Positions 1,532-15,174 of a stretch of 42,668 nt of DNA are shown here, in pieces. The position numbers and the translations under genes are program-made. The stretch is from the IMG/VR virus record IMGVR_UViG_3300022752_000136, positions 1 to 42,668 of that record; one strand, 5' to 3'. The notes under the pieces are model-generated. The model saw nothing but the letters and a program-made list of their open reading frames with translations, did not search any database and was not told the DNA's origin. This DNA is from a virus. Every line of letters starts with the position of its first letter. Position 1 is the stretch's first letter.

Positions 1532-2179
1532 TCAGTTGTTAATTGCATTAACTAAGTCAGCTAATGCTTGCGCTCCTTGGTTGACAATTATACTATTGAC
1601 GTCGCTGTCAGGCGGTAACGACACGCGGACGGCTTGAGGTATTGCATCCTGTAATCGACGAGCAAGTTCCTGCCCTGGGTTGGAGCCATCTTCCTTAGCA
1701 TCGTTATCAGTACAGATTACTACTGTCCCAATCCCATCAAAGCAGCGACTAAAGTAAGGCTTCCAGGCGTTAACTCCTGCAACAGCGACAGCAGGATAGC
1801 CAGCAAGTGTTGCTGATATAGCATCAATCTCTCCTTCTACTACGAGTACTTGGTTGACTGCATGAAGTATTGCACCCACATTATATAGATGATGCTTCTG
1901 TCCTGTAGGTATCATGTACTTAGGATCACCGCCATCAATGCGACGGAACTTAAACCCAACTACACCAGCCTCTGTTATATAGGGGATGGATAGGTGATGT
2001 CTAAGTCTATCTTCATGACCAGGTGCTACCTCTGCCACATAACCTAGTAAAAATTTTTCGGCTCCATCAAGGATGCCACGCTGTGTTAGGTAAGCCTCTG
2101 CTGGTGAACCAGCAAGGCTGTTGTGATACTGGTGTGCTGCTTTAGTCCAGAGATCTATGAGCTTGGGGTTAGTCTTCAT
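1532..2179 (-). CDS. Primase TOPRIM subunit (split DnaG-like primase)
   Basis: 215 residues. The N-terminal third (AEAYLTQRGI, then LGYV and a strand-rich SIPYITEAGVVGFKFRR segment) matches the DnaG region before TOPRIM. The TOPRIM core has VVEGEIDAISA (E115, about 113-123) and CTDNDA (D158, D160), the metal-binding acidic residues of primases. It lacks the CHC2 zinc finger, which is a separate gene at 2703-3029. The proteasome-like gene 2176-2706 lies between them and overlaps this gene by 4 bases (ATGA). It should make RNA primers together with the ATPase at 4554-5387. The C-terminus is shorter than full DnaG and has no helicase-binding domain. Confidence 0.88.
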   Translation of the reverse strand: MKTNPKLIDLWTKAAHQYHNSLAGSPAEAYLTQRGILDGAEKFLLGYVAEVAPGHEDRLRHHLSIPYITEAGVVGFKFRRIDGGDPKYMIPTGQKHHLYNVGAILHAVNQVLVVEGEIDAISATLAGYPAVAVAGVNAWKPYFSRCFDGIGTVVICTDNDAKEDGSNPGQELARRLQDAIPQAVRVSLPPDSDVNSIIVNQGAQALADLVNAINN

Positions 2180-2706
2180 GGTTTCTCCTGCCTGTGTGTA
2201 ATGAATGGGGGTGCAGTATATACATCATTGCGAGCAGCAATCTGCATTGCCTGCTTCCATGTTGCACCACCTGCCAGTGCGCCTAATGCAAAGCTTGACC
2301 CTGACCCTGCGCCATACAGCCCATCATCACGTAAGTAAACAGAGTAAGAGTCATCCACTTGGTAGATCGTGCCATTGATTGCAAGTATAAATTCAAACCC
2401 TGCATCGGCATCATCTTTATCTGGCACATAGCCAGACTCCTTAATACATTCTCTAATGCTTGGGGCTACAGTTGTAATCATAAAGTGATACATGTCTTTG
2501 ATGTTGGCTGGGATTGCTGGCGGTTTCCACACATGCTGTATCACATCACATGGTTGTACATCACCAGCACCTGCGACCAACCACTTACCTCGCTTACTAA
2601 TCTTAGTAACGATTGGATGTGAGTATGGTCTGCCACCTGCAGTAGTACGTGAATCGGCTGCAAGAATGCAGCCAGTATCTTGTTGAATACCAATGATGGT
2701 TGTCAT
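2176..2706 (-). CDS. Proteasome beta / HslV-like Ntn-hydrolase
   Basis: 176 residues. The protein starts M-T-T-I-I-G-I; removal of Met would expose Thr2 as the N-terminal nucleophile without any propeptide, as in HslV. Downstream are ILAADSRTT (D18, i.e. mature Asp17), a lysine at 35 near the expected Lys33 position, the turn YGAGSGSSFALGAL (131-144), and a C-terminal AARNDVYTAPPF block where proteasome subunits carry the conserved Asp/Ser. These are the active-site elements of the T1 family. No partner ATPase (HslU, Mpa/ARC) is seen in the window. It overlaps both primase genes by 4 bases. Peptidase activity and oligomeric state are inferred; the fold call is strong. Confidence 0.82.
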   Translation of the reverse strand: MTTIIGIQQDTGCILAADSRTTAGGRPYSHPIVTKISKRGKWLVAGAGDVQPCDVIQHVWKPPAIPANIKDMYHFMITTVAPSIRECIKESGYVPDKDDADAGFEFILAINGTIYQVDDSYSVYLRDDGLYGAGSGSSFALGALAGGATWKQAMQIAARNDVYTAPPFITHRQEKP

Positions 2707-3029
2707 CTAGCCCTCAACCTAGGCGGTGTCCACCGCCCACTCTTCTTACTGCGACGATTGTGAACAATCGGAGTAGAAGATTCCTTGCCTATATTTTTCT
2801 CTGCCCACTTGCGAGCTTCTGGGTATGCTAAGTTTTCACGACTCATGATGATCTGAATACCAGAACCACCAGCGTTACATGCATAGCATACCCATACGCC
2901 CTTCTCTGAATTTACTGAAGCAGACTTACGAGAATCATTATGCACTGGACAGAGAATAGACTTCTCCCCCTGTGGCAAGGTTAATCCATAATGATTAAAG
3001 ACTGCTTCAAGAAATTCAGGCTGATTCAT
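2703..3029 (-). CDS. Primase CHC2 zinc-finger subunit (split DnaG-like primase)
   Basis: 108 residues. It carries the DnaG-type zinc finger C27-P-V-H30 ... C48-Y-A-C51 with the flanking SILCPVHND, SASVN and WVCYACNAGGSGIQII motifs. This domain reads the template for initiation and normally sits at the N-terminus of a single primase polypeptide. Here the chain ends in a basic tail (RRSKKSGRWTPPRLRAR) and the catalytic TOPRIM part is a separate gene at 1532-2179. The start ATG lies directly after the transglycosylase stop, and an AAAGGA ribosome site overlaps that gene's last codons. Split primases are known in other actinophages; the gene lying between the halves here is the odd part. Confidence 0.87.
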   Translation of the reverse strand: MNQPEFLEAVFNHYGLTLPQGEKSILCPVHNDSRKSASVNSEKGVWVCYACNAGGSGIQIIMSRENLAYPEARKWAEKNIGKESSTPIVHNRRSKKSGRWTPPRLRAR

Positions 3030-3445: not shown

Positions 3446-3799
3446 TTACCTATGTCCATTGTAACCTGCCTGTTTTAGCAGATCAGCCCAGAGCCATGCG
3501 GGCATTACCGCGTATGACTCTGAGACATTTGTAGTGCCACGCTTTTTTATTAGCACCACGCCAGTCTCAGCATCAGCATGAGTCATCTCATCCGAGAGCT
3601 CTTGAAGATAGCCACTGAGAGTGATCTTCTTTTCGTTCTTACATTCTATCACTACGCCATCGATACCATCAATGTCACCAACATCGTTGTGACGACCTGC
3701 ACCATACGCACGTTCGGCGCATGGAAAACCATACGAGACTAGCCACTTGGCTACGTCTCGTTCGTATTGTGAACCTTTACGTTTACTTGGTGTTGACAT
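3446..3799 (-). CDS. Holliday-junction resolvase-like PD-(D/E)XK nuclease
   Basis: About 117 residues from the ATG at 3799; a GTG two codons earlier is an alternative start. The order GSQYERDVAKWL (E13), AYGAGRHNDVGDIDG (D42), VVIECKN (E52, K54) and VVLIKKRG is the archaeal Hjc/phage resolvase arrangement E...GD...ExK. It should resolve four-way junctions made during replication or recombination before packaging. It overlaps the end of the WhiB gene by 17 bases. The endonuclease-VII-type gene at 935-1222 could overlap in function, giving the phage two possible junction-cleaving enzymes. Confidence 0.82.
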   Translation of the reverse strand: MSTPSKRKGSQYERDVAKWLVSYGFPCAERAYGAGRHNDVGDIDGIDGVVIECKNEKKITLSGYLQELSDEMTHADAETGVVLIKKRGTTNVSESYAVMPAWLWADLLKQAGYNGHR

Positions 3800-4061
3800 A
3801 ATCACTTACCAATATCTGCTCGAGTATGATTCCTTTATTCCTTCGTATGATCATACGTTCCCTTGGTGTCATGCCACCCCATAATCCGTGAGCCTCATGT
3901 CTTACCGCCCACTCAAGACATTGTTGTCTTACTAAACATCCAGAACAAATTGTTTTACCAAGCGCATATACAGAAGTATCTCTTTCATTATCTTCTTCCG
4001 TAAAGAAGAACTCAGTTCCCACTTCCCTGCAACGAGCTTGATTGAAGTCTGGATAATTCAT
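3783..4061 (-). CDS. WhiB-like iron-sulphur transcription regulator
   Basis: 92 residues with the full Wbl signature: C11, then C39-x2-C42-x5-C48 to bind a 4Fe-4S cluster, followed by the GLWGGMTPRER turn (59-69) and a basic RRNKG tail for DNA contact. Wbl proteins are confined to actinobacteria and their phages, and bind sigma-A region 4 to alter promoter choice. This is the best single clue to the host group. A clear AGAGGAG ribosome site lies 8 bases before the ATG, although the gene starts inside the end of the upstream nuclease gene (50-base overlap). A phage sigma-like factor in the same operon suggests joint control of host transcription. Confidence 0.93.
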   Translation of the reverse strand: MNYPDFNQARCREVGTEFFFTEEDNERDTSVYALGKTICSGCLVRQQCLEWAVRHEAHGLWGGMTPRERMIIRRNKGIILEQILVSDYVNTK

Positions 4062-4563
4062 TAATGAGCTCCTCTATTGGTTGTAGTTGATTAGCATCCA
4101 TCACTAACCGAGTGCCGTAACCATAGTCATGTTTGTAATGCTCCGCAAGAAATCTCTCGCGTGTTATATAACCAACTATAGTAAACTTACTATCGACATG
4201 AGGTAGTTGTTTATCACCAAAGAATTGCACCAACACTGCGATGTCAGATATAAATAACTCTGGTGCATTAAAGATTAATTGCGGGAGCGTGGAAGTTTTG
4301 ACTTGTATATTTTTTCCCAGTGGTGTAGATAGGTCGTGTCCGTTGTCACCGCTCGGCGAAATTGTTCTGTCCACTTGTAACCCAAGTCCTTTGCCACACG
4401 CCATCTCACCCAACTGACCCATAAGATTAACCGAATACGACGAGTTGTTGCGATCAAATTTTTTATCGGTGACTTCATATTGCTTTTTGTTTTCTCTCAC
4501 TAGGTGGATGAAGCGAATGCCATCCAAGATTTCATCTAGGGTTAATTCAATATCTACTGCCAT
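4012..4563 (-). CDS. Putative PD-(D/E)XK-like nuclease
   Basis: 183 residues, not assigned to a named family by me. Residues 49-56 (GQLGEMAC, E53), 76-79 (HDLS, D77) and 85-90 (NIQVKT, Q87-V-K89) are spaced like the E...D...(E/Q)xK core of restriction-fold nucleases. After the core come beta-strand-like segments and a helical C-terminus. A DNA-cleaving role is inferred from this motif only; a host-genome or restriction-like nuclease, or a repair enzyme, would fit. It overlaps the ATPase gene by 10 bases and the WhiB gene by 50, so it belongs to the same transcript. Confidence 0.6.
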   Translation of the reverse strand: MAVDIELTLDEILDGIRFIHLVRENKKQYEVTDKKFDRNNSSYSVNLMGQLGEMACGKGLGLQVDRTISPSGDNGHDLSTPLGKNIQVKTSTLPQLIFNAPELFISDIAVLVQFFGDKQLPHVDSKFTIVGYITRERFLAEHYKHDYGYGTRLVMDANQLQPIEELINELSRLQSSSLQGSGN

Positions 4564-5387
4564 TGTCTCATTGTCCTTGCTCTTGCTAACTCGGCAGGTG
4601 AGTTATACAAAGTCATATGGCTTGCTTCTGCTGACAGGGAGATATAACTCTCTGCTGTTGGGTCAGCCTTACCATGTCGGTTCTTCACTATGGCAACGCG
4701 ATAAACGTTTGCCTGTCCGTCTAGTGCAACACTAAGAACCAACTCTGGTAACGCTGCAACTTTACCCATCAACGCTTTGCGTGGAGCAGGATAGTTAGGT
4801 TTTGACATCTTCTCGTTCTCGGATACGTGATGTAAAACGATGAAGGCTGACTCGTATTCACGAGCCATATAGTGGAAGGCTGACATTGCATCACGTAATG
4901 CAGTCCATTCATTGTCGCTTGTTGAAGCGACATTCATTAAGTTGTCTACAAAGATTGCTTGTGGTGCAGAGCCGTGCAGTTCTATCCAAGCTTCTATTTC
5001 TTCTTCGATGTCTTGCAACGAAGGTGACGGATCAAAGTTGAATCGAACATGCCCTGCACCATCAGCGAGTGCATCTTCCAAAAGGACTGATGCATCAGAG
5101 TCCATCATCTTCTCGACATGTGCGACTTCTTTCTCCATAAGGATTGCCCCTGCACGAGTGGCTATTGTTCGGGAGTCAGAGTCAGCCGAGAAGTAGAGTG
5201 ACGGAATCTTAGATTGAATTGCGTACCACAGTGCAAGTAGTGTCTTACCACCACCAGGTTGTGCTGCTATCAAGTGCAACTGCGCTTGACGAAACACAAC
5301 TTGTGACTGAGTAAGTTGAGGCAGAATCTCTGGGAGCATATGTCCAGCAGGAGATTCAACCCCCACTACTTGCAACAGTGAACGCAT
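4554..5387 (-). CDS. RecA/DnaB-like replicative ATPase (putative helicase)
   Basis: 277 residues. Walker A is AAQPGGGKT (41-49), Walker B is QAIFVDNL (143-150), and the SADSDSRTIATRAG block (67-80) and LHHVSENE (Walker-B-following histidine motif) are typical of RecA-fold DnaB/RepA-type phage ATPases. The N-terminal primase-interaction domain of DnaB is absent, since only about 35 residues precede the core. It probably unwinds DNA or loads the host helicase, working with the split primase. It lies 2 bases after the unknown gene 5390-5866. A KaiC-like recombination mediator is an alternative, but the replication context favours helicase. Confidence 0.82.
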   Translation of the reverse strand: MRSLLQVVGVESPAGHMLPEILPQLTQSQVVFRQAQLHLIAAQPGGGKTLLALWYAIQSKIPSLYFSADSDSRTIATRAGAILMEKEVAHVEKMMDSDASVLLEDALADGAGHVRFNFDPSPSLQDIEEEIEAWIELHGSAPQAIFVDNLMNVASTSDNEWTALRDAMSAFHYMAREYESAFIVLHHVSENEKMSKPNYPAPRKALMGKVAALPELVLSVALDGQANVYRVAIVKNRHGKADPTAESYISLSAEASHMTLYNSPAELARARTMRQWQ

Positions 5388-5389
5388 TG

Positions 5390-5866
5390 TTACTTAGCCC
5401 AGATAGTTTCTGCTTCGGTTGCACCTGGGGCAAAAGGCTTCGGTCCCTTAGCTGGATCGAACCAACCAACGTAAGCCTTGCCAGCCTTGGAAGTACCCTT
5501 CTTCTTTGCGTACTTACCACGACCGTCTGGTAATGCTGGTGCATCTGGATGTCCATATGTCCATTCATTACCATAGCGATCCATGATTACTTCAATTGCT
5601 TGAGGTGTTGTACCTGTTGCAACTGGAGTTGGATTGAGTCCAGCATCCTTCAACATCTGCACTGCTGCATCTGCGTTAGGTGTGTATGCATTACCTGATG
5701 CACCGCCTGAGCGGTTGTTCAGTGTTTGCTGTAGTGCAGCAGCATCAGCAATTGCTTCAACTGCTGCTGTTAGGTTGGCACGAAATTCACTCACGCTATT
5801 GCCACGCACAGTGAATAGGTCAGTTGAGTTCAACTTACCTGTATACGAGAACATAGATTCAGTCAT
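5390..5866 (-). CDS. Conserved-looking replication-module protein of unknown function
   Basis: 158 residues, not recognised with certainty. The N-terminus (FSYTGKLNSTDLFTVRG) has the strand pattern of small beta-barrel proteins. The middle is Ala/Asn/Gly-rich and linker-like. Residues about 93-158 are rich in Trp, Tyr and Lys (YGNEWTYGHPDAP, then GKYAKKKGTSKAGKAYVGWF). Aromatic and basic residues together, and a place between the helicase-like ATPase and the nuclease, would suit a single-strand DNA-binding or annealing partner, but no OB-fold signature is clear. It overlaps the nuclease gene by 8 bases. The function remains open. Confidence 0.75.
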   Translation of the reverse strand: MTESMFSYTGKLNSTDLFTVRGNSVSEFRANLTAAVEAIADAAALQQTLNNRSGGASGNAYTPNADAAVQMLKDAGLNPTPVATGTTPQAIEVIMDRYGNEWTYGHPDAPALPDGRGKYAKKKGTSKAGKAYVGWFDPAKGPKPFAPGATEAETIWAK

Positions 5867-6536
5867 CTAGTTCATCTCCTTTTCCTTTTCCCTGGATTTG
5901 TAATGGGAAATCTTTTCCTCCCATTGCAGGACATTGTGCCGTAAAACTGCACATCCTGCAGGAGTCACCAACTGATGGAGGGAACCAGCCCTCCCAAACG
6001 GCAGCATTCATTGCGCCAAATACATAATCAAAATAATCCATTGTCAAATGTGACAAGTCAATGAGTTCATCGAGCTCGCCTTTGCGAGTCATGAAGAAGG
6101 CTCCCCACTTAGGGCGAATGCCATAGATACGTTCTATACCAGAGGCGTATAAACCAGCCTGTATCGCACCGAAGGGCGTCCTAGAACCTGTCTTGTAGTC
6201 AACGATAACAAGGTCTTCCCCTACCTTATAGATCGCATCAACAACCATGCGTACTGGTGTACCCCCGAAGAATACATCAGCAGCCCATTCGATTCCAGGA
6301 CGCCCATCAGGCATCGTAGCAATCTGCCAACCAGATTGTTTGTACCAGTTATAGTACGCCTCAACCTGCTTGAGACCATCGCTCTGCCAGAATGGTAGAT
6401 CTTCCCCATCGGGACGCAAGGTGGTCTTACGTCCCGCTGTCTTCCATTCCGTGGATGGAATGCCTGTCTTTTGTTCTGTCTCCAGAACGGCGTCATTAAA
6501 TACTTCCGCCCATTTAGTTGTCAAATCGATAGTCAT
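5859..6536 (-). CDS. RecB/Cas4-like exonuclease, C-terminal (catalytic) part of a split gene
   Basis: 225 residues. It has the RecB-family nuclease core: GIE (E83), VVDAIY (D100), VDYKTG (D113, K115), then QAGLY (Q126-x3-Y130), and ends with C193-x2-C196-x5-C202, the spacing of the last three iron-sulphur ligands in Cas4 and AddB. The first ligand and the family's N-terminal motif are missing here and are found in the separate gene 6710-6904. It begins where that fragment's homology stops, and overlaps the intervening zinc-ribbon gene by 23 bases. It probably degrades or resects linear DNA. Activity may require pairing with the other fragment. Confidence 0.85.
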   Translation of the reverse strand: MTIDLTTKWAEVFNDAVLETEQKTGIPSTEWKTAGRKTTLRPDGEDLPFWQSDGLKQVEAYYNWYKQSGWQIATMPDGRPGIEWAADVFFGGTPVRMVVDAIYKVGEDLVIVDYKTGSRTPFGAIQAGLYASGIERIYGIRPKWGAFFMTRKGELDELIDLSHLTMDYFDYVFGAMNAAVWEGWFPPSVGDSCRMCSFTAQCPAMGGKDFPLQIQGKGKGDELDD

Positions 6537-6744
6537 CGGGGTTCCAATCTGGGTGATCTACTGGGGTTGGTGCTGTCATTGGTGAGCCACAGTTGGCACA
6601 AAAAGAATCCAAGAACCACATAACCAGCTCGTAGTCCGAGAATACTGCTCTAATAACTTGGACGTTACTTCCGCAATTAATACACTCATTGCTTGGTACG
6701 CCACGTTGGTCAATCCCCTGTGGGTTGCTGTCGGTAGAGCTCAT
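6514..6744 (-). CDS. Small zinc-ribbon protein inserted between the two nuclease fragments
   Basis: 76 residues with two knuckles, ECINCGSN (C21/C24) and FCANCGSP (about C49/C52), separated by a hydrophobic helix-like AVFSDYELVMWFLDS, and an acidic Pro-rich tail. Together they form a plausible four-cysteine zinc ribbon. The gene overlaps the N-terminal nuclease fragment (35 bases) and the C-terminal fragment (23 bases) in other frames, so it interrupts what is one continuous nuclease gene in related families. Similar small ribbons occur free-standing in actinophages. It may be a passenger, or may bind the nuclease halves; function unknown. Confidence 0.75.
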   Translation of the reverse strand: MSSTDSNPQGIDQRGVPSNECINCGSNVQVIRAVFSDYELVMWFLDSFCANCGSPMTAPTPVDHPDWNPDDYRFDN

Positions 6745-6904
6745 GGTTTAACCACTCCAACATTGAATGGACGGCGGAACCAGCAGCAAGATAGACTGCA
6801 GGCTTTTCTGGAACCATGGCTACCTTGCTCAGATAATATTTCTGAGGACAGGACTGCCACGTAGACAGCTGACTAAAGGATCTATGAGGAGGAAGTTCAT
6901 TCAT
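6710..6904 (-). CDS. RecB/Cas4-like exonuclease, N-terminal fragment of a split gene
   Basis: 64 residues from ATG 6904. The sequence SQLSTWQSCPQKYYLSKV (11-28) followed by YLAAGSAVHSMLEWLN (38-53) is the N-terminal signature of the RecB/Cas4 nuclease family, with C19 as the usual first 4Fe-4S ligand and H46 as the active-site histidine. The chain stops soon after, at residue 64, just where the rest of the enzyme should follow; the rest is at 5859-6536. A longer frame runs further upstream into the terminator region and is not credible. No ribosome site precedes the ATG, so a leaderless message is possible. First gene of the leftward replication operon. Confidence 0.8.
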   Translation of the reverse strand: MNELPPHRSFSQLSTWQSCPQKYYLSKVAMVPEKPAVYLAAGSAVHSMLEWLNHELYRQQPTGD

Positions 6905-6925
6905 ACTATAAGAATACCAGTCGTG
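6905..6925 (-). promoter_or_regulatory. Possible leaderless promoter of the replication operon
   Basis: On the minus strand a TATTCT hexamer (6911-6916) lies exactly 6 bases before the ATG at 6904, which would put the transcript start on the A of the start codon. An overlapping TATAGT is also present but sits too close to the ATG. There is no Shine-Dalgarno sequence, and leaderless messages are common in actinobacteria. No good -35 box is visible, so this is a weak inference. Confidence 0.3.
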
Positions 6926-12988: not shown

Positions 12989-13555
12989 TTACGCAAACTT
13001 AGTTTGTGATGCTAATACAGTAAATGTAGCAGATGCTGTCTTAATAATTGTGAATACATAGACATCAATAGAAGATGCGTTACCAGCAGTAATTGCTGTT
13101 CCACCCTGCCACTTTGGAGTTATAGATGTTCCATCGATGTTGATAGTGCTTGGATAATAAGCAGTAGTTCCATTGGTATTTAGCCATACAAGAGTAATTG
13201 TATCGCCAGTTGCTAATGCTGTGTTAAGAGACACGGCGCTGCTATATCTAAAGTTGAGTGTGTGGTTGGCTGTTGCGTTTGATGTGTAGTACCAGATAGA
13301 TGCGGTTGAGACTTCAAAGTTAATTGTTCCAGTTGCAGCAGAAGCCACAATGTTGACATCTTCTTCTAGTCCTCGAACTACTGCATCTGTTAGAGTTCCA
13401 CCCTTTTCACGAGCAAGTGGATATCCACCTGCTAATGATCCATTGTGAACTACTACTGTGTTCTTATCAGTATCTACTGTCAATTCGCCCAGTAGTCCTG
13501 TAAAGGATGCGTGTTGTGCCGTAGTTCCTCTACGGCGTTGGAATGCGAATGGCAT
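12989..13555 (-). CDS. Tail fibre protein with MTD-like N-terminal segment
   Basis: 188 residues from ATG 13555, which overlaps the upstream stop as TAATG. The N-terminus (MPFAFQRRRGTTAQHASFTG, followed by LLGELTVDTDKNTVVVHNG) is the short trimerising motif at the start of many fibre and tropism-determinant proteins. The rest is Ser/Thr-rich beta structure (TINFEVSTASIWYY, TITLVWLNTNG) ending ATFTVLASQTKFA. It should sit on the long coiled fibre encoded just upstream. No variable-repeat or reverse-transcriptase system is seen nearby, so tropism switching by mutagenic retrohoming is not suggested. Confidence 0.75.
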   Translation of the reverse strand: MPFAFQRRRGTTAQHASFTGLLGELTVDTDKNTVVVHNGSLAGGYPLAREKGGTLTDAVVRGLEEDVNIVASAATGTINFEVSTASIWYYTSNATANHTLNFRYSSAVSLNTALATGDTITLVWLNTNGTTAYYPSTINIDGTSITPKWQGGTAITAGNASSIDVYVFTIIKTASATFTVLASQTKFA

Positions 13556-15174
13556 TAGATCGTTCCCCAATCTGATAAGGAAGCCCAAGAAGCTGAGGTT
13601 CCATTGTTTGTTAAGAAGTAACCACTAACCCCAGCAAAGATTGCTGGGATATAGCTTGCTGCTGCGGTTGCACTATTAGCCGCTGATGTGGCTGAAGTAG
13701 CAGCAGAACTTGCAGAAGTTGCTGCTGCTGTAGCAGAGGCTGCTGCGCTTGCTGCGCTAGTTGCTGCTTGGTTTGCACTGGTAAGAGAGTTGCTTGCATG
13801 TACACCAGCTGAACCAGCAGATGTTGCAGCAGAAGATGCTGAGGTTGCAGCAGCGGATTGTGATGCAGCAGAACTAGTTGCACTAGTTGCTGCGTTGGTA
13901 GCCGATATTCCAGCAGACCCTGCGCTAGTTGCTGCATTTGATTCACTTGTTGCAGCTGATGCTTGTGATGCAGCAGCACTTGATGCAGACGTTGCAGCCT
14001 GCGCTGCTGAAGTTACTGCAGTTGCTGCTGATGTAGTTGCAGTTGCTGCTGAAGCAGATGCGGTTGACGCAGATGTTGCTGCAGATGAAGCAGAAGTTGC
14101 TGCGCTAGATGCGCTGGTGGCTGCTGAGTTAGCAGATGCCTGAGTATTGGTTTGCAGTGAAGATAGCGAGATCCATGTGCCAGTGCTTGTATCGGTATCT
14201 GTAATAGATCCCATGTCACGGACAAGACCAGATGCAACCTGACCAGCAACAGATGATGCAGAACCTGCAGCAGATGATGCTGATGTACCAGCAGATGTAG
14301 CACTAGTAGCAGCAGCGTTTGCTGATGCAAGAGCAGCCGATGCCGATGCTGCTGCACTAGTTGCACTAGTAGCAGCGGATGTAGCAGATGTAGCAGCCGA
14401 GGTAGCAAATGTTGCTGCACTTGACTGCGATGTATTGGCTGCTGTTGCAGATGCTGCAGATGATGTAGCACTGGTCGCTGCTGCCGTAGCACTGGCTGCT
14501 GCCGAAGATGCTGAAGTTGCAGCACTAGAAGAACTTGTTCCAGCATTAGTTGCAGCAGTAGATGCGCTAGATGCAGAGGTTGCTGCAGAGGTTGCTGAAG
14601 TAGCAGCACTTGCTGCGCTTGTTGCTGCAGCAGTTGCACTGCTTGCAGCAGCAGTAGCAGAACCTGCAATACCAGTTACATATGCTAAGTTCGCTGCATC
14701 ACCAGATGTTGTTGGTGTTGCTACGTTTGTAATCTTGTAGTTATTAGCATTGATTACACCAGCAGCGGTAATGATTGCTGCAGATAAAGTCTTTGTTCCA
14801 GTCAGTGTCTGTGAGCCACCAGTACCAACGACATCACCGCTAATGCCGTGAACATCTGTGGTTGCAACTTCGTGTTGGCGAGACTCTGTAAAGTCTCGAG
14901 CCGATACACCGTGTTCAACGTTAGCACCAAAGGCATGTGCCTTAGCACCCGATGAGTCAATGTTACGAGTAATCTGGTAGGCAGAACCTACCAGACTGGT
15001 AACTTCAACTACTTCTTCATTTGCTGTATCCTTCTCAAGAATGAGTGTGTAGGGATACTGTGCAGGTAGATTGCTTGCAGCAGCAAGCGTAAGGCTTGTT
15101 GCTGATGAACTGATCGAAGCAGCAAGAGTAGTCTTGGCTGCATTCGAACTATAGTAACGTGCTTGTGTTGGCAT
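13555..15174 (-). CDS. Long tail fibre with Ala/Ser/Thr heptad-like repeats
   Basis: 539 residues. Residues 1-165 are a tail-attachment region with typical baseplate-type strands (YPYTLILEKDTANEEVVEV, then HGVSARDF and GTGGSQTLTGTKTLS). Residues about 170-310 and 344-500 are two blocks of (A/S)xxAATSAxS-type repeats, giving a long parallel helix bundle; a non-repetitive hinge (GLVRDMGSITDTDTSTGTW) separates them. The C-terminal 35 residues (IPAIFAGVSGYFLTNNGTSASW) form a tip domain. The DNA is accordingly repetitive, and the opposite strand also reads open by chance. It should act as a rod-like fibre shaft. Confidence 0.85.
   Translation of the reverse strand: MPTQARYYSSNAAKTTLAASISSSATSLTLAAASNLPAQYPYTLILEKDTANEEVVEVTSLVGSAYQITRNIDSSGAKAHAFGANVEHGVSARDFTESRQHEVATTDVHGISGDVVGTGGSQTLTGTKTLSAAIITAAGVINANNYKITNVATPTTSGDAANLAYVTGIAGSATAAASSATAAATSAASAATSATSAATSASSASTAATNAGTSSSSAATSASSAAASATAAATSATSSAASATAANTSQSSAATFATSAATSATSAATSATSAAASASAALASANAAATSATSAGTSASSAAGSASSVAGQVASGLVRDMGSITDTDTSTGTWISLSSLQTNTQASANSAATSASSAATSASSAATSASTASASAATATTSAATAVTSAAQAATSASSAAASQASAATSESNAATSAGSAGISATNAATSATSSAASQSAAATSASSAATSAGSAGVHASNSLTSANQAATSAASAAASATAAATSASSAATSATSAANSATAAASYIPAIFAGVSGYFLTNNGTSASWASLSDWGTI

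Follow-up and report, generated by a model that had tools for sequence, protein, structure and literature searches.

A predicted Cas4/RecB-type iron-sulfur nuclease encoded in two pieces by phages of freshwater actinobacteria

Results

A nuclease divided over two genes

The stretch of DNA analyzed here (the window) comprises positions 1 to 42,668, i.e., 42,668 nucleotides, of IMG/VR virus record IMGVR_UViG_3300022752_000136. An earlier note, made from the sequence alone, had described three overlapping open reading frames (ORFs), the outer two of which carry the N-terminal cysteine (C19) and histidine (H46) and the catalytic VDYKTG with three further cysteines (C193/C196/C202) of one nuclease family. 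All three ORFs and their motifs were found exactly so, on the minus strand, at the head of the following operon; we refer to the two nuclease genes as the N-part and the C-part.

6911 to 6916, minus strand: TATTCT, putative -10 promoter element; the N-part ATG follows after exactly 6 nt
6710 to 6904, minus strand: N-part of the split PDDEXK_1/Cas4-like nuclease, 64 aa; Fe-S ligand C19 (SCPQKYYL) and motif H46 (GSAVHSMLE); profile matches
6514 to 6744, minus strand: gene for a 76-aa zinc-ribbon protein that sits between the halves and overlaps both; probable passenger, with a homologue elsewhere in sister-clade genomes
5859 to 6536, minus strand: C-part of the split nuclease, 225 aa; D100, D113-Y-K115 (VDYKTG), Q126-x3-Y130, C193, C196, C202; profile matches, conserved own ATG
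5390 to 5866, minus strand: next operon gene, 158-aa protein of unknown family, without a Pfam match
4554 to 5387, minus strand: DnaB/KaiC-type helicase, same operon (PF13481, 1.7e-9; PF03796, 4.9e-8); order as in isolate actinophages
3446 to 3805, minus strand: putative Holliday-junction-resolvase-like PDDEXK_15 endonuclease, same operon, below the Pfam cut-off; order as in isolate actinophages
2703 to 3029, minus strand: primase N half, CHC2 zinc finger (PF01807, 7.9e-12)
2176 to 2706, minus strand: proteasome-subunit-like gene between the primase halves (PF00227, 2.3e-4, just under the cut-off)
1532 to 2179, minus strand: primase C half, Toprim (PF13362, 1e-8)

The zinc-ribbon ORF shares 35 nt with the N-part and 23 nt with the C-part, and the frame changes by +1/-2 at each step from the N-part via the zinc ribbon to the C-part. 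In the C-part, VDYKTG occupies residues 112 to 117 and the cysteines are spaced C193-x2-C196-x5-C202. In the four-cysteine Fe-S nucleases of the Cas4/AddB/EXO5 class, the two ends of the domain are held together by one N-terminal cysteine and three C-terminal ones; to our knowledge, these enzymes are known as single chains.

The RecB/Cas4-like identity suggested by the earlier note is borne out by profile comparisons, in which the two proteins behave as complementary portions of one domain. PF12705 (cut-off, 22 bits) is matched by the N-part alone in columns 3 to 51 (2.3e-7, 31.4 bits) and by the C-part alone in columns 110 to 247 (2.8e-7, 31.2 bits), and the joined sequence scores 64 bits (2.6e-17), above the gathering score. 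The joined sequence also matches the exonuclease family phrog_1870 (9e-66) and is the only form to pass PF01930 (25.1 versus 22.7). The NCBIfam cas4 model TIGR00372 is likewise matched in complementary columns (3 to 43 and 71 to 179), at 29 bits and thus short of its curated cas4 score of 65. The catalytic residues H46, D222, D235, K237, Q248, and Y252 (joined numbering), spread over the two genes, are invariant in an alignment of 42 rows, as are the columns of all four Fe-S-type cysteines (C19 plus C193/C196/C202). We predict that the enzyme is a PD-(D/E)XK exonuclease of the Cas4/RecB/AddB type, encoded in a replication-recombination operon, and that its source phage infects freshwater actinobacteria, probably “Ca. 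Nanopelagicales.”

The split is conserved among related phages

Relatives were collected from IMG/VR contigs, which are not independent samples, and from the cultured Planktophila phages LanE43AprE7 and LanE43AprF5, fetching the best 80 loci per search; for the C-part query, these were the best 80 of 152 relatives. Wherever the upstream region was present in the fetched C-part loci, the three ORFs followed each other in the same order and none were fused, and the zinc-ribbon query returned the same arrangement in further contigs. The N-part query alone yielded 68 further loci, in all of which (68/68) the C-part follows. The earlier note had proposed a search for the same split in related phage contigs. 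Of about 275 distinct relatives, only one lacks it; the others are divided at the same site. Among the distinct N-to-C sequences, 113 to 116 hold the zinc-ribbon gene (the window clade), 156 overlap directly (the direct or sister clade), 5 hold other genes, and 1 is fused. Relatives of the direct type number in the hundreds in IMG/VR (400 encoding matches in one search, at least 539 in another). They include LanE43AprF5 and LanE43AprE7, which lyse a “Ca. Planktophila” strain and in whose description the word “exonuclease” is absent from the main text (PMC10202952). These two phages share the split nuclease, with the C-part ATG overlapping the N-part stop, but the slot between the halves is empty and their zinc-ribbon homologue lies elsewhere. 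No bacterial genome, host or prophage, was found to encode a relative with the searched nuclease patterns.

The complete set of patterns (Cys, His, DxK, and CxxCx5C) is kept in 109/113 zinc-ribbon pairs, 156/156 direct pairs, and 5/5 pairs with other cargo, or 271/275 distinct pairs overall. The exceptions are two N-part deletions (L028 and L490), an Asp-to-Val change (L078), and a conservative V-to-I change beside the retained His (L512). In sampled pairs analyzed by the NG86 method, dN/dS was 0.011 for the N-part and 0.079 for the C-part in the window clade and 0.048 and 0.092, respectively, in the direct clade; the N-part is thus under extreme purifying selection (about 0.01) in the window clade.

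The single fused relative, L275 (IMGVR_UViG_3300042111_000031, positions 2203 to 2961), in which a short deletion joins N-part and C-part, matches PF12705 end to end (3.3e-18, 67 bits). The deletion apparently lies between short GAGTT repeats, and it could be real or an assembly error. The existence of L275 might suggest that a sequencing or assembly error split one gene everywhere else, and the earlier note had named intact single-gene close relatives, together with reads showing a base error, as a sign in that direction. One such relative was indeed found, but it is nested within the split clade (96/96 support) and its nearest relatives are split, so that L275 is either a later re-fusion or itself an error. 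Moreover, two cultured phages that were sequenced as isolates show the same split, as do about 275 distinct assemblies drawn from many metagenomes. Since independent isolates and assemblies show the split, a sequencing slip, already thought unlikely in the earlier note, was rejected, and we assign it a practically negligible probability.

More distant homologues are undivided, as the earlier note had stated for the family: about 1,250 isolate actinophage records hold an intact one-chain homologue, with the same operon neighbors (helicase, resolvase, and primase) in the three that were inspected. These “Cas4 exonucleases” (D29 gp69, SWU2 ORF68, CosmicSans gp56, Cutibacterium phage gp36; phrog_1870) have the same domain, cysteines, and catalytic motifs as the split pair but consist of one gene and one chain, at about 24 to 36% identity. 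The split relatives form two clades; for the sampled sequences, the split has one origin in 81% of bootstrap trees and may have arisen once.

Fold of the joined nuclease

The natural fusion L275 was used for structure prediction. With the N rows aligned, AlphaFold2 returned a model with a mean pLDDT of 70 and a pTM of 0.59, in which the catalytic core lies above 90 (up to 97), whereas values of about 40 to 55 were obtained for the N half (about 50) and for the segment with the C-terminal cysteines (about 40); this model was used for fold identity only. When only C rows were in the alignment, the pLDDT of the N half was about 27. A Foldseek search with the L275 model retrieved the Cas4-family protein ACE1 (4e-5), AdnA, and MGME1, followed by EXO5, AddAB, and Cas4 complexes, while a PDB sequence search with the fusion found nothing. 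The model thus supports a Cas4-family fold of the nuclease.

Could the C-part be a working nuclease on its own, with the N-part as a remnant or in a new role (e.g., as a regulatory or DNA-binding peptide) and without a cross-chain cluster? The C-part does hold the whole Asp/Asp-Lys/Gln-Tyr core, and confident models of this core were obtained although the N half was poorly modeled. However, the N-part is the most constrained part of the system (dN/dS of 0.011), it keeps precisely the Cys and the His of the family, and it is always followed by the C-part, which in turn keeps three cysteines that need a fourth ligand. We therefore consider a self-sufficient C-part improbable and favor a nuclease formed from both parts.

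The halves have their own starts, and their junction hosts unrelated genes

The C-part has its own ATG in 156/156 direct junctions and in 114 of the 115 zinc-ribbon junctions. In the direct type, this ATG overlaps the N-part stop by 8, 11, 14, or 20 nt (156 distinct sequences). The zinc-ribbon gene starts with ATG in 102 cases, GTG in 11, and TTG in 2. In L034 and L040, an ACG (Thr) apparently replaces its ATG (Met) start, with the frame still open.

Other genes occupy the same slot in a few relatives. L334 and L336 have a 71-aa ORF that is unrelated to the zinc ribbon, L372, L394, L395, L396, and L560 carry related ORFs of 105 to 114 aa, and L358, L359, and L364 hold two ORFs, of 107 and 218 aa, with 922 nt from the N-part stop to the C-part open frame. 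The 218-aa protein (L358:2367-3023) has a subthreshold DUF7574 match, and its 107-aa slot companion is lysine rich. Overall, the inserts part the halves by 177 to 922 nt, and the N-to-C phases are 0, 1, and 2. The zinc-ribbon, 71-aa, and 107- to 114-aa lineages are placed at separate positions in the tree, which suggests at least three independent landings. With the exception of the zinc ribbon (by profile), no cargo gene was found elsewhere in the fetched loci. Neither for the zinc ribbon nor for the remaining inserts did a domain search detect an endonuclease domain (HNH, GIY-YIG, or any other), and most direct-clade junctions have no insert; the pattern is not that of a gene split by a homing endonuclease gene.

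The overlapping frames could also mean that programmed frameshifting or bypassing joins them into an ordinary nuclease of one chain, in which the zinc ribbon might or might not be an inserted domain. Indeed, each successive ORF of the three in the window is +1 relative to the previous one, the overlaps are conserved, and in the direct clade, N-part and C-part invariably overlap in the +1 frame. However, a conserved overlap by itself locks the phase, and the C-part start codon is kept in essentially all junctions. Moreover, in three of the cargo loci (L372, L394, and L395) the C-part start reads AAGGAG-N5-GTG, i.e., it is preceded by a strong Shine-Dalgarno sequence. Phases also vary, both in the cargo loci and within the zinc-ribbon lineage. 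There, L542, L543, and L544 have a changed overlap phase (GTG-N2-TGA between N-part and zinc ribbon, 13 nt between zinc ribbon and C-part), which argues that the frame relation is not constrained. Given inserts of up to two complete genes and all three phases, a single frameshifted chain is no general explanation, and we regard programmed frameshifting as very unlikely. Instead, production of the N-part and the C-part as separate chains is well supported by the arrangement of starts and inserts.

Distinct sequences upstream of the N-part were compared for both clades. A TANNNT element lies 6 or 7 nt before the ATG in 68 of the 69 from the window clade but in only 4/94 of the direct clade, and Shine-Dalgarno-like runs show the reverse distribution (2 of the 69 window-clade sequences versus 41/94). 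Although a TTG farther upstream would extend the N-part ORF to 115 aa, its start is likely the ATG at 6904, since protein similarity begins there and the TANNNT element precedes it in these 68 relatives. In the window, the nuclease operon is thus likely to begin with a leaderless cistron, followed by coupled cistrons.

The zinc-ribbon gene is probably a passenger

A zinc-ribbon homologue (DLRGxP..CxCG...CxxCG..TAPTPxD) is encoded away from the nuclease in 19/20 direct-clade records (profile search, E values of 1e-5 to 8e-11). In LanE43AprF5, it lies about 5 kb from the nuclease on the opposite strand, and in the six direct-clade loci examined by eye, its neighbors are lysozyme-like and FmdB-like genes. 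A sequence search found no phage isolate with the zinc ribbon.

The earlier note had raised the possibility that the zinc ribbon is a third partner of the nuclease. A dedicated third subunit would fit the window clade, in which the gene is conserved and always stands between the halves, and the window itself, which holds the slot copy only. Nevertheless, the sister clade has the same split without a zinc ribbon at the junction. Furthermore, the L334 record, with its unrelated 71-aa gene in the slot, lacks a detectable zinc-ribbon homologue, and L372, L394, and L358 carry other slot genes. A three-component complex is thus left with little probability. Given the homologue elsewhere in sister-clade genomes and the other genes that fill the slot, the zinc ribbon is probably not a nuclease subunit; rather, it was probably already a gene of these phages before it moved into the slot.

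A second gene in pieces in the same operon

The predicted primase is a parallel gene in pieces in the same operon, wedged gene included. Its halves are separated by the proteasome-like gene in 40 window-clade loci, and they abut or overlap in 215 direct-clade loci. Homologues of the 158-aa protein (5390 to 5866) accompany the nuclease in relatives, and a role as a DNA-binding partner might apply. Outside the operon, positions 13555 to 15174 (minus strand) encode a highly repetitive protein rich in Ala, Ser, and Thr (SAATSATSAA repeats), which is probably a tail or fiber protein.

Discussion

Taken together, we consider it likely that two chains from one ancestrally split gene assemble in trans into one nuclease with a shared 1+3 Fe-S cluster and that the junction of the split is permissive for inserts. 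The cut in the ancestral nuclease gene would lie directly behind the helix bearing the histidine of motif I. A single message would serve for separate translation of the two halves: the N-part would start at an ATG that is leaderless in the window, and the genes after it would use their own overlapping starts by translational coupling. To the assembled enzyme, the N-part would contribute one Fe-S cysteine and the His, and the C-part would contribute three cysteines and the Asp/Asp-Lys/Gln-Tyr site. The junction would be a landing place for other genes, with the zinc-ribbon gene as its passenger in the window. If the pair folds like Cas4/AddB, it follows that the Fe-S cluster would be held between two polypeptides and, given the 1+3 division of its ligands, would tie the two chains together. 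It is tempting to go further and to propose an obligate two-chain nuclease in which the cluster staples the subunits, so that assembly depends on it. In this proposal, which we regard as evenly balanced, the split junction, like that of the primase, would be a recurrent landing slot where streamlined phages can gain or relocate genes while their essential functions stay intact.

Genes in pieces are known from T4-like phages, in which the split nrdA (ribonucleotide reductase) of Aeh1 yields a functional enzyme and the idea has been raised that a gene invaded the already split gene 43 of phage 25 (PMC2988022). The nuclease follows the same pattern, with one enzyme on two ORFs in the order of the one-chain homologue. 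Aeh1 nrdA-a/mobE/nrdA-b, the split gene 43, and gene 60/39 of T4-like phages also feature an enzyme of DNA metabolism made of two polypeptides, with another gene between. In contrast to these cases, the nuclease split is old and common to a large phage group that includes insert-free forms, its inserts, which belong to at least three unrelated kinds, include no homing endonuclease, and it divides an Fe-S ligand set.

The Fe-S module of the Cas4 class has four cysteines (PMC5704561), and in Cas4, AddB, AdnA, and ACE1, these are likewise arranged 1+3 around the PD-(D/E)XK core, in a matching fold. However, these enzymes are single chains, and the phage pair comes without CRISPR or a helicase fusion. 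In a limited literature search, no earlier description of a Cas4/RecB-type Fe-S nuclease in two pieces was found. Fe-S clusters that bridge subunits are known in other enzymes, such as the nitrogenase Fe protein; the surprise is therefore specific to the Cas4/RecB nuclease class and to the insertion slot.

In practical terms, the 64-residue half may be overlooked in gene prediction and annotation of these very abundant phages. For the nuclease family, a natural two-chain form poses directly the question of whether the cluster glues the fold together and can control assembly. The Planktophila phages LanE43AprE7 and LanE43AprF5 offer a cultured model, and the hundreds of variants can be used to follow how essential phage genes are cut, invaded, and re-fused with no homing endonucleases in sight.
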